From Leeuwenhoekiella sp. (GTDB taxonomy: Bacteria > Bacteroidota > Bacteroidia > Flavobacteriales > Flavobacteriaceae), in assembly GCA_002708845.1 (NCBI GenBank), contig PAPI01000004.1, forward strand, positions 62,001 to 126,000: a stretch of DNA of 64,000 nt. The letters run 5' to 3'. The notes under the pieces are model-generated. The model saw only the letters and a program-made list of their open reading frames with translations, had not been told where the DNA came from and did not search any database. Below, one piece after another: positions 8,119-36,906 of this stretch. The position numbers and the translations under genes were made by a program. Each line of letters starts with the position of its first letter. The stretch's first letter is position 1.

Positions 8119-8300
8119 GAATTTTGATTTTTTGCTATGATACGGCTTTAAAAATTCATTTTAAAGCCTGATTTTGCTATTCTTTGTTAAATATAGCTTA
8201 ATTCGCCAAGGCTTAAAATTTGATTTAACGCTGTTTTAGTAATTTGCACCACTTTGTTTATCCTGAAGCCGCATTATTTTCAGCTTCCTGCGTAAAACTA

Positions 8301-8361
8301 CCTCAGGGCAAGCCCAGAGGCATTCGTTATTAACAAATTTTCATTTTCGAGGTAAACCTCG
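8301..8361. repeat. Two GC-rich hairpins in the 8119-8409 intergenic gap
   Basis: The 291-base gap between divergent genes holds no ORF but two compact palindromes. At 8301-8320 CCTC-A-GGGC-AA-GCCC-A-GAGG folds into a double stem; at 8348-8361 CGAGGT-AA-ACCTCG is a perfect 6-bp stem. Neither is followed by a T-run, so they are not simple terminators. They look like a dispersed intergenic element or a leader structure for the downstream hydrolase gene. Confidence 0.45.
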
Positions 8362-8409
8362 TGCTATTAATCTATTTGGCGGTGCCAATTAAAAATCAGT
8401 AGTCTGTTT

Positions 8410-33200: not shown

Positions 33201-33657
33201 TCCAAAGGAAGGTTCCAATGAAGAAGCCGGCGGTAAGGCTGGCGAAGCCGAGTTAGCCAGGCAGTATGAGATTTATAAGCAACAGGAAGATTTACGTAAC
33301 AGGTTACAGGATTTAATTCAAAACGGTGATCTTGATGAATCGGCAAGAGATTTGCTTAAACAAATGGAGGACGTGGAGGAGTCATTATTGTCTGGAAATT
33401 CAGAAAATGCCAGACGAAGAATGGAGAATTTAATACAGCAATTTTTAAAACTCGAGGATGCTGAACAGGAAAAGGAGCGAAGAACGGAGCGTGAGTCTAA
33501 TTCTAATAAAGAAAATTTTACCAATGATATCAGGAATGATTTTCCAGAGGTAAGGGATTACTTTAATACAGATGAGATTTTAAATAGGGATGAGTTACCC
33601 CTTAAATTACGTTTTAAACAGAAGGTTAAAAATTATTTTGATAAAGGAGATGATTGA
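30256..33657 (+). CDS. DUF4175 family large membrane protein
   Basis: An 1133-residue protein. Two or three transmembrane helices lie at about residues 22-42, 52-75 and 150-168; residues about 185-480 are beta-rich (PAPFNFELINPEDRAVEGQV, TPVLTGFDAQLSYPAYLRKP), and from about 490 onward the chain is overwhelmingly Glu/Lys/Gln-rich coiled coil with low-complexity linkers (GGGGGS, GEGKDSGDTKGNKPGDNKEG). This is the layout of DUF4175 proteins, conserved in Bacteroidota next to ybeY and mnmG. Function unknown; an envelope-spanning or scaffold role is a guess. The last codons overlap ybeY. Confidence 0.88.
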   Translation: MALEEKLEAFISKYYKNELLKGILFFLAIGLTYVLLVLIIEYFFWLNKLGRGLLFWSFVGLELVLLIRFIFIPLFRLFRLSKGIDYNKASVLIGNHFPEVRDKLINTLQLKASSSQSDLLAASIAQKSKELEPIPFSLAVDYKSNARYIKYALIPVLIFAAFSFSKGTSFFSESAERVWDYKGEYVPPAPFNFELINPEDRAVEGQVFEIATQVSGNQLPEEVQIELNGQEFFMKSRGAGRFVFTVDQVQGDLNFQFKGNGVTSRSYEVPLVQTPVLTGFDAQLSYPAYLRKPDETISNTGSFTVPEGTRVTWKLTARNATVLEFISDTVISFNRDGSDFTLERQFFRPADYAIATSNSTLKRYEELNYHIDVVRDAYPELNLERKADTTGSEQIYFKGSVSDDHGLRSLKLVYYIENQYSEKNYLDIPVSESNIDQFYAAFPGKLNLEQGKAYTYFFEVRDNDALNGFKATRSASETYNVLTDDRALDKQLEIQEKTLKDLDKSVSKMQERQEKLQDLQNLQKEKIKLDFNDRKKLQSFFERQKAQEELMKNYSETLKKSLERMEDLMESPSPTNELLKKRLEKNEEQLREQEKLMEEMAKLQELMDDEELSNRLDELSKNSKNSSRSMQQLLELTKRFFVQTKGERLGRELNNLGQEQAKEAAPNKQSDIQKQKELSESFKDINEEIEDLRKENSKLQKPLDMPQSSKIQDIQQEQKEAEDALEKNSDSDNQSQESSEGQSEGKKSQKKAGEKMQKLGQQMMQSMSSGGGGGSTQQLEEDIEMLRQILDNLIVFSFDQEALKDDFGNLDNSNPLFSKYLVKQNTLRENFQHIDDSLFVLALRNPFLEEDINAELTEISYGLNQALERLAENEISKGLASQQYVFKGANTLADMLSDILDNMQGQLSMSMGSGSSGAPMPSPGSGGDKQLSDIIMSQEELAKKLGEGKDSGDTKGNKPGDNKEGDGKNSGEGEGSQGDNGTPKEGSNEEAGGKAGEAELARQYEIYKQQEDLRNRLQDLIQNGDLDESARDLLKQMEDVEESLLSGNSENARRRMENLIQQFLKLEDAEQEKERRTERESNSNKENFTNDIRNDFPEVRDYFNTDEILNRDELPLKLRFKQKVKNYFDKGDD

Positions 33658-34069
33658 GTTTAATAGTCAGAACGATTTTAGTTTACAGGAAGAGGATCGT
33701 ATTAAGTTGTGGTTAGAGCGTATTGCGCAAAAAGAAAGTTTTCAAATAGATGAACTGGGATATGTGTTTTGCTCGGATGAGTATTTATTAGAAATCAATA
33801 AACAATACCTGGACCATGACACGTATACAGATATTGTGACTTTTGATTACAGTGATAATGGTGTTCTTAATGGTGAGCTCTATATCAGTACAGAGCGTGT
33901 TGAGGATAATTCTAAAGATTTTAATGTAAGTTTTGATACCGAACTTCGACGAGTTATAGCCCACGGTTTACTCCATATGTGTGGTTATGGTGATAAATCT
34001 GTAGATGAAATTTCTGTAATGCGGTCAAAGGAGGAAGAATGTTTAAAATTGTGGGAGGAGGGTTCTTAG
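33650..34069 (+). CDS. ybeY: Endoribonuclease YbeY (rRNA maturation factor)
   Basis: A 139-residue metalloprotein that matures the 3' end of 16S rRNA. The zinc motif HGLLHMCGYGDKS (family HGxLHLxGYDH) is present, with the terminal His of H-x3-H-x5-H replaced by Lys-Ser context (GYGDKS), a point to check. YISTERVEDN and HDTYTDIVTFDY are further family blocks. The ATG at 33650 lies inside the DUF4175 gene, overlapping its stop by 8 bases and preceded by AAAGGAG, an unusually good ribosome-binding site; longer in-frame extensions are unlikely. Confidence 0.92.
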   Translation: MIEFNSQNDFSLQEEDRIKLWLERIAQKESFQIDELGYVFCSDEYLLEINKQYLDHDTYTDIVTFDYSDNGVLNGELYISTERVEDNSKDFNVSFDTELRRVIAHGLLHMCGYGDKSVDEISVMRSKEEECLKLWEEGS

Positions 34070-34089: not shown

Positions 34090-34097
34090 TACCTTTG
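34090..34097 (+). promoter_or_regulatory. Candidate -7 promoter element for mnmG
   Basis: TACCTTTG matches TAnnTTTG, 43 bases before mnmG and 28 bases before the parS-like site, so a transcript would carry the parS-like sequence in its leader. Confidence 0.5.
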
Positions 34098-34124: not shown

Positions 34125-34140
34125 TGTTTCACGTGGAACA
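34125..34140. other. parS-like site immediately before mnmG
   Basis: TGTTTCACGTGGAACA differs at one position from the near-universal parS TGTTTCACGTGAAACA, the binding site of ParB in chromosome segregation. It ends directly at the mnmG ATG, where a ribosome-binding site would normally sit. Confidence 0.8.
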
Positions 34141-36018
34141 ATGAGTTTTTTTGATCAGACATATGATGTTATTGTAGTAGGAGGGGGTCACGCGGGTTGT
34201 GAAGCCGCGGCCGCAGCTGCCAATATGGGCAGCAGTACGCTGCTTGTTACGATGAACCTGCAGACTATCGCGCAGATGTCGTGCAACCCGGCAATGGGTG
34301 GTATTGCAAAAGGACAAATCGTTCGTGAAATTGACGCCATGGGTGGCTATAGTGGTATTGTTTCAGACCGTACTGCTATTCAGTTTAAAATGCTTAACAA
34401 GAGCAAAGGTCCCGCTATGTGGAGTCCACGTGTGCAAAGTGATCGAATGCGTTTTGCTGAGGAATGGCGTCTGATGCTTGAGCAAACTCCTAATCTTGAT
34501 TTTTATCAGGAAATGGTTAATGGTTTGCTTATAGAAGGGGATCGTGTTACAGGAGTACGTACTTCTCTTGGGATTGAGATTAAAGCGAAATCAGTAATTC
34601 TTACTAATGGTACTTTTCTAAACGGTTTAATTCACATTGGTGAAAAGCAATTTGGAGGAGGTAGAGCAGGGGAGCGCAGTGCAACCGGAATTACCGAGCA
34701 GTTAGTTGATTTAGGTTTTGATTCCGGTAGAATGAAGACAGGAACACCACCTCGTGTTGATGGTAGAAGTCTTGATTTTTCAAAAATGATCGAGCAACCT
34801 GGAGATGAAGATCCTCAAAAATTCAGTTATTCAGATAAGACAAAGCCGCTTTCTAAACAGCGGTCGTGTCAAATGAGTTACACGAGTCCTGAGGTTCATG
34901 AATTACTTCGTGAAGGTTTTGATCGTTCACCTATGTTTAATGGTCGAATTCAAAGTACCGGACCACGGTATTGTCCTTCTATTGAAGATAAAATAAATCG
35001 GTTTGCAGATAAAGACCGTCATCAGCTTTTTGTAGAACCTGAGGGATGGGATACTATTGAGTATTATGTAAACGGATTTTCCACTTCCCTTCCAGAAGAT
35101 GTTCAGTTTAAAGCTTTGCGCCAGGTTGCTGGTTTTGAACATGTGAAGTTTTTTAGACCCGGTTATGCGATCGAGTATGATTACTTTCCGCCGACTCAAT
35201 TAAGACATACCCTCGAGACTAAATTGGTATATGGCTTATATTTCGCAGGTCAAATTAACGGAACTACAGGTTATGAGGAAGCTGCCTCTCAAGGTTTGAT
35301 GGCGGGTATAAATGCAAGTTTGAAGGTTCAGGAGAAAGATCCTTTTATCTTAAAAAGAGATGAGGCCTATATTGGTGTTTTAGTAGATGATTTAATTACT
35401 AAAGGCACGAAAGAACCTTATCGTATGTTTACATCCAGAGCTGAATATAGAACGTTACTTCGTCAGGATAATGCGGATAGTAGACTTACGCCGCGTTCGT
35501 TTGACATCGGTTTGGCTAGAGAAGATCGTATGCGTGCTTTAGAAAAGAAAGAATCACAAGCTCAGAATTTGGTAGAATTTTTCAATACAACCAGTATTCA
35601 ACCAGAGGAAGCAAATCCTGTTTTAGAGGAAAGGGGAACTTCACCGATGAAGCAGTCTGATAAAATGGTGAAAATTTTCAGTCGGCCTCAAATAGCTCTT
35701 GATGATATGCTTCAATTTAATGATGTTAAGTCTTATGTTGAAGAACATGATTTAGATACCGAAGTTTTAGAACAGGCTGAAATCAGAATTAAATACGCGG
35801 GTTATATTGAGAAGGAAAAAGCCAATGCCGATAAACTTCAGCGATTGGAGAACATCAAGATCCCGGATAATTTTGATTACACCAAGTTGAAATCGCTTTC
35901 TTTCGAAGCACGCGAAAAACTTTCAAAAATCAGACCTACTACCATCTCTCAGGCTTCCAGAGTAAGTGGGGTTTCTCCGAGTGATATTTCGGTGATGTTA
36001 GTTTATATGGGACGCTAA
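34141..36018 (+). CDS. mnmG: tRNA uridine-5-carboxymethylaminomethyl modification enzyme MnmG (GidA)
   Basis: A 625-residue FAD-dependent enzyme that, with MnmE, builds the cmnm5 group on U34 of several tRNAs. The FAD motif VGGGHAGCEAA (from residue 12), CNPAMGGIAKGQIVREIDAM, MKTGTPPRVDGRS and the C-terminal GYIEKEKANADKL/ASRVSGVSPSDI are all present and length is standard. It is bracketed by two parS-like 16-mers, one directly at its start codon and one 7 bases after its stop. Old literature names it gidA because of its frequent location near the origin. Confidence 0.98.
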   Translation: MSFFDQTYDVIVVGGGHAGCEAAAAAANMGSSTLLVTMNLQTIAQMSCNPAMGGIAKGQIVREIDAMGGYSGIVSDRTAIQFKMLNKSKGPAMWSPRVQSDRMRFAEEWRLMLEQTPNLDFYQEMVNGLLIEGDRVTGVRTSLGIEIKAKSVILTNGTFLNGLIHIGEKQFGGGRAGERSATGITEQLVDLGFDSGRMKTGTPPRVDGRSLDFSKMIEQPGDEDPQKFSYSDKTKPLSKQRSCQMSYTSPEVHELLREGFDRSPMFNGRIQSTGPRYCPSIEDKINRFADKDRHQLFVEPEGWDTIEYYVNGFSTSLPEDVQFKALRQVAGFEHVKFFRPGYAIEYDYFPPTQLRHTLETKLVYGLYFAGQINGTTGYEEAASQGLMAGINASLKVQEKDPFILKRDEAYIGVLVDDLITKGTKEPYRMFTSRAEYRTLLRQDNADSRLTPRSFDIGLAREDRMRALEKKESQAQNLVEFFNTTSIQPEEANPVLEERGTSPMKQSDKMVKIFSRPQIALDDMLQFNDVKSYVEEHDLDTEVLEQAEIRIKYAGYIEKEKANADKLQRLENIKIPDNFDYTKLKSLSFEAREKLSKIRPTTISQASRVSGVSPSDISVMLVYMGR

Positions 36019-36024
36019 TTTTAT

Positions 36025-36040
36025 AGTTCCACGTGAAACA
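36025..36040. other. parS-like site immediately after mnmG
   Basis: AGTTCCACGTGAAACA, whose reverse complement TGTTTCACGTGGAACT matches the parS consensus at 14 of 16 positions; a second copy of the upstream site in opposite orientation of its asymmetric half. Confidence 0.7.
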
Positions 36041-36075: not shown

Positions 36076-36906
36076 TTGAAAAAAAGCGATTTGAAAATTA
36101 AAGATCATTCCTTTTCTCAGGAAGAATTTGATTTGATTTACGACGCAGAACTGGATAAATACATAACAACTCCGGTTCCTCAAAATTTGGAAGACTATTA
36201 TAAAACCGAAAACTACATTTCGCATACAGATGCTAAAGCCGGATTAACTGATAAAATTTATCAGATGGTGAAGCATTTTATGCTAAAGCGAAAACTGAAC
36301 CTGATTAGTCAATATGCTTCTCGGGGGAAGCTTTTAGATATTGGAGCAGGTACCGGTGATTTTTTAAAATCTGCACAAGAATCCGGTTGGGAGGTAAGAG
36401 GTCTCGAACCTAGCGAGACAGCTCGCCAAAATGCCCAAAATAAAGGAATTAAACTTTCGGCTACTATAGATAATTTAGACGGTGAAGATTTTGAGGTAAT
36501 TAGTATGTGGCATGTTTTAGAACACGTACCAGATACTCAAAAGCAAATACAATGGATTTTTGATCACCTCACAGAAAATGGAATTGCGGTAATCGCTGTT
36601 CCTAATTTTAAATCGTACGACGCTAATTATTATAAAGAATTTTGGGCCGCCTGGGATGTGCCGAGACATCTGCATCATTTTTCTTCAAAAAGCATAAAAT
36701 ATCTTTTTGAGAAACACAGTTTTAAATGTATAGCTATAAAACCACTTATTTTCGATTCCTTTTATGTAAGTATGCTTTCTGAAAAATACAAAGGTTCAAA
36801 TTCACCAATGATCCCCGGGTTTTTTAGAGGACTCCTGTCAAATATCAAGGCTAAATCATCTGGTGAATATTCTTCTCTTATTTTTATCCTTAAAAAGCAG
36901 GAATAA
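36076..36906 (+). CDS. Class I SAM-dependent methyltransferase
   Basis: A 276-residue soluble protein starting at TTG (no ATG fits the reading frame better). Motif I is LLDIGAGTGDFLKSA, with GLEPSETARQNAQ as the acidic strand and SMWHVLEHVPD as the post-I helix; NYKEFWAAWDVPRHLHHF is typical of the Methyltransf_23 group that modifies sugars, lipids or quinone-like compounds. The N-terminal 60 residues carry no Zn-finger. Substrate unknown. It follows the parS-like site and mnmG closely and may be part of the mnmG transcript. Confidence 0.88.
   Translation: MKKSDLKIKDHSFSQEEFDLIYDAELDKYITTPVPQNLEDYYKTENYISHTDAKAGLTDKIYQMVKHFMLKRKLNLISQYASRGKLLDIGAGTGDFLKSAQESGWEVRGLEPSETARQNAQNKGIKLSATIDNLDGEDFEVISMWHVLEHVPDTQKQIQWIFDHLTENGIAVIAVPNFKSYDANYYKEFWAAWDVPRHLHHFSSKSIKYLFEKHSFKCIAIKPLIFDSFYVSMLSEKYKGSNSPMIPGFFRGLLSNIKAKSSGEYSSLIFILKKQE

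Follow-up and report, generated by a model that had tools for sequence, protein, structure and literature searches.

Introduction

ParB is loaded onto DNA at parS sites and spreads from them when CTP is present. As a rule, par operons and most parS sites are found in the ori domain of the chromosome (PMC7022226), and the ancestral cluster of 'origin genes' (PMC2099444) comprised parA, parB, gidA, gidB, dnaA, dnaN and others. Binding specificity within the family has been traced to a few residues; according to Jalal et al. 2020 (PMC7383237), residues 173 and 201 separate binders of parS (RxxG) from binders of NBS (QKKR), and position 172 is a parS-contacting serine conserved in ParB and Noc. 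A study of 12 gut bacteria, including two Bacteroidetes, cautions that origin and dnaA do not always go together, and it reports no known condensin homologue in the two Bacteroidetes examined (PMC10197239).

Here we analysed a stretch of 64,000 nucleotides from Leeuwenhoekiella sp. (contig PAPI01000004.1, positions 62,001 to 126,000; hereafter the window), in which two palindromes of parS type flank the tRNA modification gene mnmG, also known as gidA.

Two palindromes at the ends of mnmG

The mnmG gene (34141..36018, plus strand) encodes a tRNA uridine-5-carboxymethylaminomethyl(34) synthesis enzyme of 625 aa, identified by TIGR00136 (843.1 bits, cut-off 524.85) and PF01134. The first site, TGTTTCACGTGGAACA, occupies 34125-34140 and abuts the start codon (ATG at 34141), and the second, AGTTCCACGTGAAACA, occupies 36025-36040, six bases separating it from the stop codon, which ends at 36018; neither is assigned a strand. 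Both are 16-bp palindromes, the first with 1 and the second with 2 mismatches to TGTTTCACGTGAAACA. The initial annotation had described a site ending at the base before the mnmG ATG and another shortly 3' of the stop, each one or two changes from the near-universal parS, and these measurements bear out all three statements.

With up to 3 mismatches allowed, the window contained 3 matches to TGTTTCACGTGAAACA against 0.44 expected; the best two are those flanking mnmG, and the other has 3 mismatches. We scanned the whole assembly (4,353,457 bases, 39 contigs, 98.04% complete) for the exact degenerate core GTTYCACGTGRAAC, and found 2 copies, 1.9 kb apart and only at mnmG, while the control gave 0. 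Few and clustered sites are what had been anticipated of such a genome-wide scan. When up to 3 mismatches were allowed over the assembly, 22 places matched compared with 26 for the reversed control; because this is the chance level, the loose scan was not used. The pair flanking mnmG is far above chance.

The gene block reads gltX - DUF4175-like - ybeY - mnmG - methyltransferase - OmpH - holB - pgk. Upstream, ybeY (33590..34069, plus strand, TIGR00043) is the neighbour of mnmG, and downstream a methyltransferase-domain gene (36076..36906, plus strand, PF13489) is followed by an OmpH-like gene, holB on the minus strand and the phosphoglycerate kinase gene. Around mnmG there were 7 promoter-like hits (5.5 expected) and 5 terminator-like hits (1.8 expected), and none overlaps either site. 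The octamer TACCTTTG at window 34090-34097, between ybeY and the 5' site, fits TAnnTTTG, the Bacteroidota -7 promoter element. Given this match, the 5' site may lie within the mnmG leader.

Conservation of the sites at mnmG

Two samples, 60 relatives and 148 genomes over the phylum, together gave 205 different genomes. The exact core was present in 55 of the 60 relatives and 140 of the 148 phylum genomes (control matches, 2 and 7), or in 192 of 205 overall, mostly as two copies, against a control total of 9. Genomes with any exact site carry 1 to 9 copies, which mostly stay in the mnmG zone. Distances to mnmG were assessed in 177 genomes, 28 of the 205 being left out, namely G017 (no mnmG hit), G173 (weak mnmG hit), G040 (position of the second site missing), G141, G155, G171, G178, G198 and 20 further genomes. 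The layout was read from sequence in 144; in 32 it was taken from alignment coordinates, where distances run from the aligned mnmG ends and may be some bases too large; and in one, G027, whose mnmG is split over two contigs, it was set by hand to bracketing.

Of the 177 assessed genomes, 160 had an exact site no more than 600 bp from mnmG; 166 of the 177 carry an exact site somewhere in the genome. In 84 of these 160 the sites bracket the gene, in 37 they are upstream only and in 39 downstream only. Bracketing was found in 47 of 50 assessed members of the window genome's family, so the pair, whose conservation in relatives the initial annotation had proposed to check, is kept there, and the accompanying remark that it is unusual for such sites to pair around one gene does not apply to this group. 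The same layout appears in distant families, in 13 of 17 assessed members of f29 and in some or all of those of f26, f34, f38-f40, f42 and f45. The nearest upstream site was at a median of 13 bp from the mnmG start codon (121 genomes), and the nearest downstream site at a median of 7 bp from the stop (123 genomes). In all 13 of 13 genomes of the window genome's genus, no base separates the 5' site from the ATG (distance 0) and the gap between the stop and the 3' site is 0-7 bp; elsewhere in the family the 5' site is up to about 120 bp from the start. Outside the window genome's order, the marker neighbours of mnmG were mostly not found in the fetched stretches, yet the sites remain; some members of the class keep ybeY near mnmG.

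Named loci gave a similar picture. Among the best 80 of at least 592 matches, 66 bracket mnmG, including Flavobacterium, Chryseobacterium, Winogradskyella, Psychroflexus and Christiangramia, 10 have upstream sites only, 3 downstream sites only, and one, a Capnocytophaga MAG, has no site at mnmG; in one of the 66 (L354) the downstream site is inside the called ORF and is doubtful.

Some genomes hold larger sets of sites. There are 4 to 9 in G079, G083, G126, G142 and G199 (genus g45) and likewise in Flavobacterium loci L297, L300 and L302, among the matches listed. Many of these sites follow one another in arrays at intervals of roughly 40-70 bp, and most lie on the upstream side of mnmG. Separately, contig G006:C80 carries a second, distant mnmG (44% identity) and four exact parS cores; it is probably foreign DNA, the genome being listed at 9% contamination.

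Genomes in which sites and mnmG part

The 17 assessed genomes without an exact site at mnmG fall into two kinds. In 11 there is no exact site anywhere in the genome, and 9 of these have a one-mismatch core within 250 bp of an mnmG end; in the control, 14 of 1961 stretches had two or fewer mismatches. The remaining two are G149 and G051, the latter a 344,793 bp contig with mnmG present and with neither a ParB hit nor a site. Over all 205 genomes the exact core is missing in 13, and 12 of the 13 have a ParB hit.

In the other six genomes, G035, both f19 genomes, two f30 genomes and one f44 genome, mnmG had no site within 250 bp even at 3 mismatches, and exact sites are present elsewhere in the genome. 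In G035, which belongs to the window genome's family, mnmG lies about 280 kb from the sites; the three sites (L106; 7145, 8295 and 8768) stay beside the methyltransferase and OmpH genes, the usual neighbours of mnmG, and two of them, 0.47 kb apart, flank a 133-codon ORF next to the old neighbour of mnmG. In the f19 genomes (L109, from G122, and L111, from G095) a site is inside the coding sequence of a putative thrC-like gene, so named from its sequence and operon order, and G122 has a second site nearby. In the two f30 genomes and the f44 genome sites are present, none of them in the stretch fetched around mnmG. These layouts indicate that the sites and mnmG can each occur without the other.

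Six genomes have no exact core and a one-mismatch site by mnmG: L113 (G046), L114 (G058), L120 (G135), L121 (G196), L122 (G105) and L123 (G140). Most of these sites have a CATGTG or CACATG centre. A shift in ParB specificity is possible in these genomes.

ParA and ParB genes

The window genome encodes one ParB, beside a ParA-like ATPase, on another contig than mnmG (G000:C1, L165:9643-11351). The protein has 301 aa, scores 172.2 bits with TIGR00180 and carries GERRFRA in the N-domain, and its best solved relatives are ParB/Spo0J structures. The adjoining ParA-like and ParB genes are followed by a short unassigned ORF and then by putative dapB-like and lepB-like genes, named from their sequences. 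Counted along the sequence in Caulobacter numbering, R and G, as in parS binders, are at positions 173 and 201, asparagine replaces the conserved serine at position 172 and a permissive lysine is at position 184. The ParB encoded here is predicted to be the cognate of the two sites.

A ParB was found in 148 of 148 genomes of the phylum sample and in 57 of 60 relatives; those without a hit are G051, G015 (80% complete) and G059 (83% complete). Its gene does not keep to the sites. We measured this in the 28 single-contig genomes that have both an exact site and a ParB hit, taking the top ParB hit of each (some genomes have further, weaker ones) and, in part, chromosome lengths rounded to 0.1 Mb. 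The distance from parB to the sites ranged from 7.6% to 49% of the chromosome with a median of 27%, close to the 25% of random placement. In 26 of the 28, parB was more than 10% of the chromosome away, so that a par operon in the ori domain, which is usual and not defining for parS, was not the arrangement found in them. In G011, a single-contig congener, parB and the sites are on nearly opposite sides of the chromosome. Similarly, tblastn with the ParA and ParB of the window genome found neither parA nor parB in any of the mnmG-bearing stretches of about 5-16 kb.

Predicted replication origin

Cumulative GC skew, computed over 226 of the 387 kb of the window genome's own contig with an internal gap of 2 kb, is lowest at window 8348, and the predicted replication-origin region (8119..8409, no strand) is flanked by a divergent antiporter-like gene and a lactonase-like gene. 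In G011 (4,244,565 bp) the minimum within the 250 kb examined is at 4,196,646; its aligned place in the window is at about 8.2 kb, the two minima agreeing to about 0.15 kb. Twenty samples of 20 kb from G011 were mainly positive in skew over 0-2 Mb and mainly negative over 2.2-4.18 Mb, with a few on both arms near zero or of opposite sign. DnaA boxes were not enriched in the search (62 found, 73 expected) and formed no cluster at the predicted origin; the placement near window 8.3 kb is thus a prediction from skew. In the own genome and in G011, two genomes of one genus, a distance of 26-28 kb separates the site pair from the skew minimum, the pair being on a conserved segment common to the two. 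We also sampled the GC skew of G035, asking whether its stranded sites still mark the origin, and it was noisy.

Discussion

The observed properties of the sites are those of a chromosomal parS: 16-bp palindromes near TGTTTCACGTGAAACA, two clustered copies, a genome encoding ParB and a ParA-like protein, proximity to the skew origin in two genomes, and conservation over the phylum. By analogy with studied systems, we consider it very likely that the pair is genuine parS, the centromere of a ParABS system, to which binding, sliding and segregation would also apply. G051, with neither a ParB hit nor a site, agrees with this. Points that speak against it are the DnaA boxes, which are not enriched, the distance of parB from the sites, the asparagine at position 172 of ParB, and the 13 of 205 genomes that lack an exact core, 12 of which have a ParB hit. 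A segregation site in this region, as the initial annotation had anticipated, is accordingly what the single genomic cluster, the ParB and ParA-like ATPase genes, the skew and the relatives predict.

ParB made from another contig would load on both sites as a CTP-dependent clamp and slide over mnmG and its surroundings, and since ParB spreads from parS, mnmG would lie within the ParB-covered zone. The complex, next to the origin, would then be moved apart by ParA. The extra sites probably arose by local duplication. As to why the sites are at the ends of mnmG, we propose that the gene, as gidA, belongs to the old origin-proximal gene set, and we infer that the gene keeps the sites for this reason; they lie right against its start and stop codons, and rearrangements would seldom separate the two. 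That sites on both sides hug the mnmG ends across the phylum is not easily accounted for by hitch-hiking alone, and other explanations have to be weighed.

Being near-perfect inverted repeats, one just 5' of the ATG and one just 3' of the stop, the palindromes could be thought to form hairpins, in the leader or as a terminator, of the mnmG transcript. However, the predicted fold of the leader is no more stable than that of shuffled sequences (z +1.21), no terminator-like hit falls at either site, and among 235 sites the stem-breaking C/A forms (41) are as common as the stem-keeping T/G forms (40), as would be expected of a site that acts as DNA rather than as an RNA hairpin. The downstream site is even kept in its C/A form in 12 of 13 genomes of the genus. 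We rejected this reading on the form counts and the leader fold, and its probability is very small. That the matches arose by chance is practically inconceivable; two best matches flanking one gene where 0.44 were expected in the window, and a core kept in 192 of 205 genomes against 9 control matches, refute it. A further proposal, made in the initial annotation, is that ParB binding links mnmG translation, and with it tRNA modification, to segregation or growth state. Stated fully, the sites would be ParB operators of mnmG, with ParB at the 5' site blocking or tuning the start of transcription or translation so that the level of MnmG follows ParB/CTP state or origin copy number. The 5' site touching the ATG in 13 of 13 congeners agrees with this, as does the fidelity to mnmG (160 of the 166 assessed genomes with any exact site) where, outside the order, its marker neighbours are mostly not found in the fetched stretches. 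There are also precedents in PMC7022226: P. aeruginosa ParB repressed a gene adjoining an inserted parS, three genes in the V. cholerae ParB zone changed without ParB1, and a mutated S. pneumoniae parS raised comCDE expression 5 kb away. In B. subtilis, on the other hand, loss of Spo0J left parS-adjacent genes unchanged (PMC7022226). An operator would be expected at a fixed position at the start codon and to be required at mnmG, whereas side and distance vary (84 bracketing, 37 upstream only, 39 downstream only), which leaves no fixed operator geometry, the 5' site is up to about 120 bp from the start codon elsewhere in the family, and the G035, f19, f30 and f44 genomes, six of those assessed, have mnmG without a site. 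In G035 mnmG has moved away without a site while the sites stayed by its old neighbours, which weakens the proposed link further, and we regard the operator reading as quite improbable. From the variable geometry and the genomes that dropped the link, we argue that segregation, not control of mnmG, is the main role of the sites.

The dependence may run the other way, with the gene helping the centromere: a transcribed, ever-present gene between loading sites about 1.9 kb apart would set a preferred spacing or topology for ParB clamp loading, and selection would keep the sites around it. That 47 of 50 assessed family members have sites on both sides of the gene, a layout that recurs in distant families, fits this, as do the sites mostly staying in the zone although their number varies from 1 to 9, and the sites of G035 flanking a small ORF beside the old neighbour of mnmG. 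But those flanking sites are just 0.47 kb apart, one-sided layouts are common outside the order, and in the species studied, origin positioning needs no more than one parS close to oriC (PMC7022226); we therefore hold this reading to be rather unlikely. It is also unlikely that mnmG is the fixed centromere gene of the phylum. In that case ParB loading beside it would be selected for more than segregation and would tie the expression or folding of the mnmG unit to duplication of the origin, a bond that would have survived the break-up of the parA-parB-gid cluster.

The best reading is thus that the segregation element is canonical, an ordinary ParABS centromere in kind, and that the new part is the phylum-wide attachment of parS to mnmG with parAB elsewhere. 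No title on this parS-mnmG layout was among the papers listed in our literature searches; the survey of Livny 2007 may already contain parts of it. Since the origin is not necessarily marked by dnaA in this phylum, the mnmG-bound sites offer a simple and testable landmark by which to locate the centromere and the surroundings of the origin, and they raise the question of why parS sites stay by one tRNA-modification gene while the ParABS genes wander over the chromosome.

Compared with Noc/NBS, the system here has a related protein fold and similar palindromes. The own ParB scores 242.1 bits with the Noc model TIGR04285, below its cut-off of 315, and has R/G, not Q/R, at the switching residues (counted along the sequence). 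For the NBS bases at the distinguishing positions we relied in part on presumed identities. Both sites carry the parS bases at the two positions that distinguish parS from NBS (PMC7383237), so that neither NBS bases nor the QKKR residues are found here. With the ancestral origin gene cluster the locus shares gidA/mnmG, a member of that cluster and here near the predicted origin, but parA and parB were not found in the stretches of about 5-16 kb with mnmG. The chromosomal ParABS of Bacillus subtilis and Caulobacter is matched in the palindromes near TGTTTCACGTGAAACA, the ParB/Spo0J-related ParB, the adjoining ParA-like ATPase and the origin proximity; unlike in those systems, parB here lies far from the sites, which are set tightly against both ends of mnmG. 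What is unusual is that the sites faithfully follow mnmG while the parA and parB genes do not stay close.
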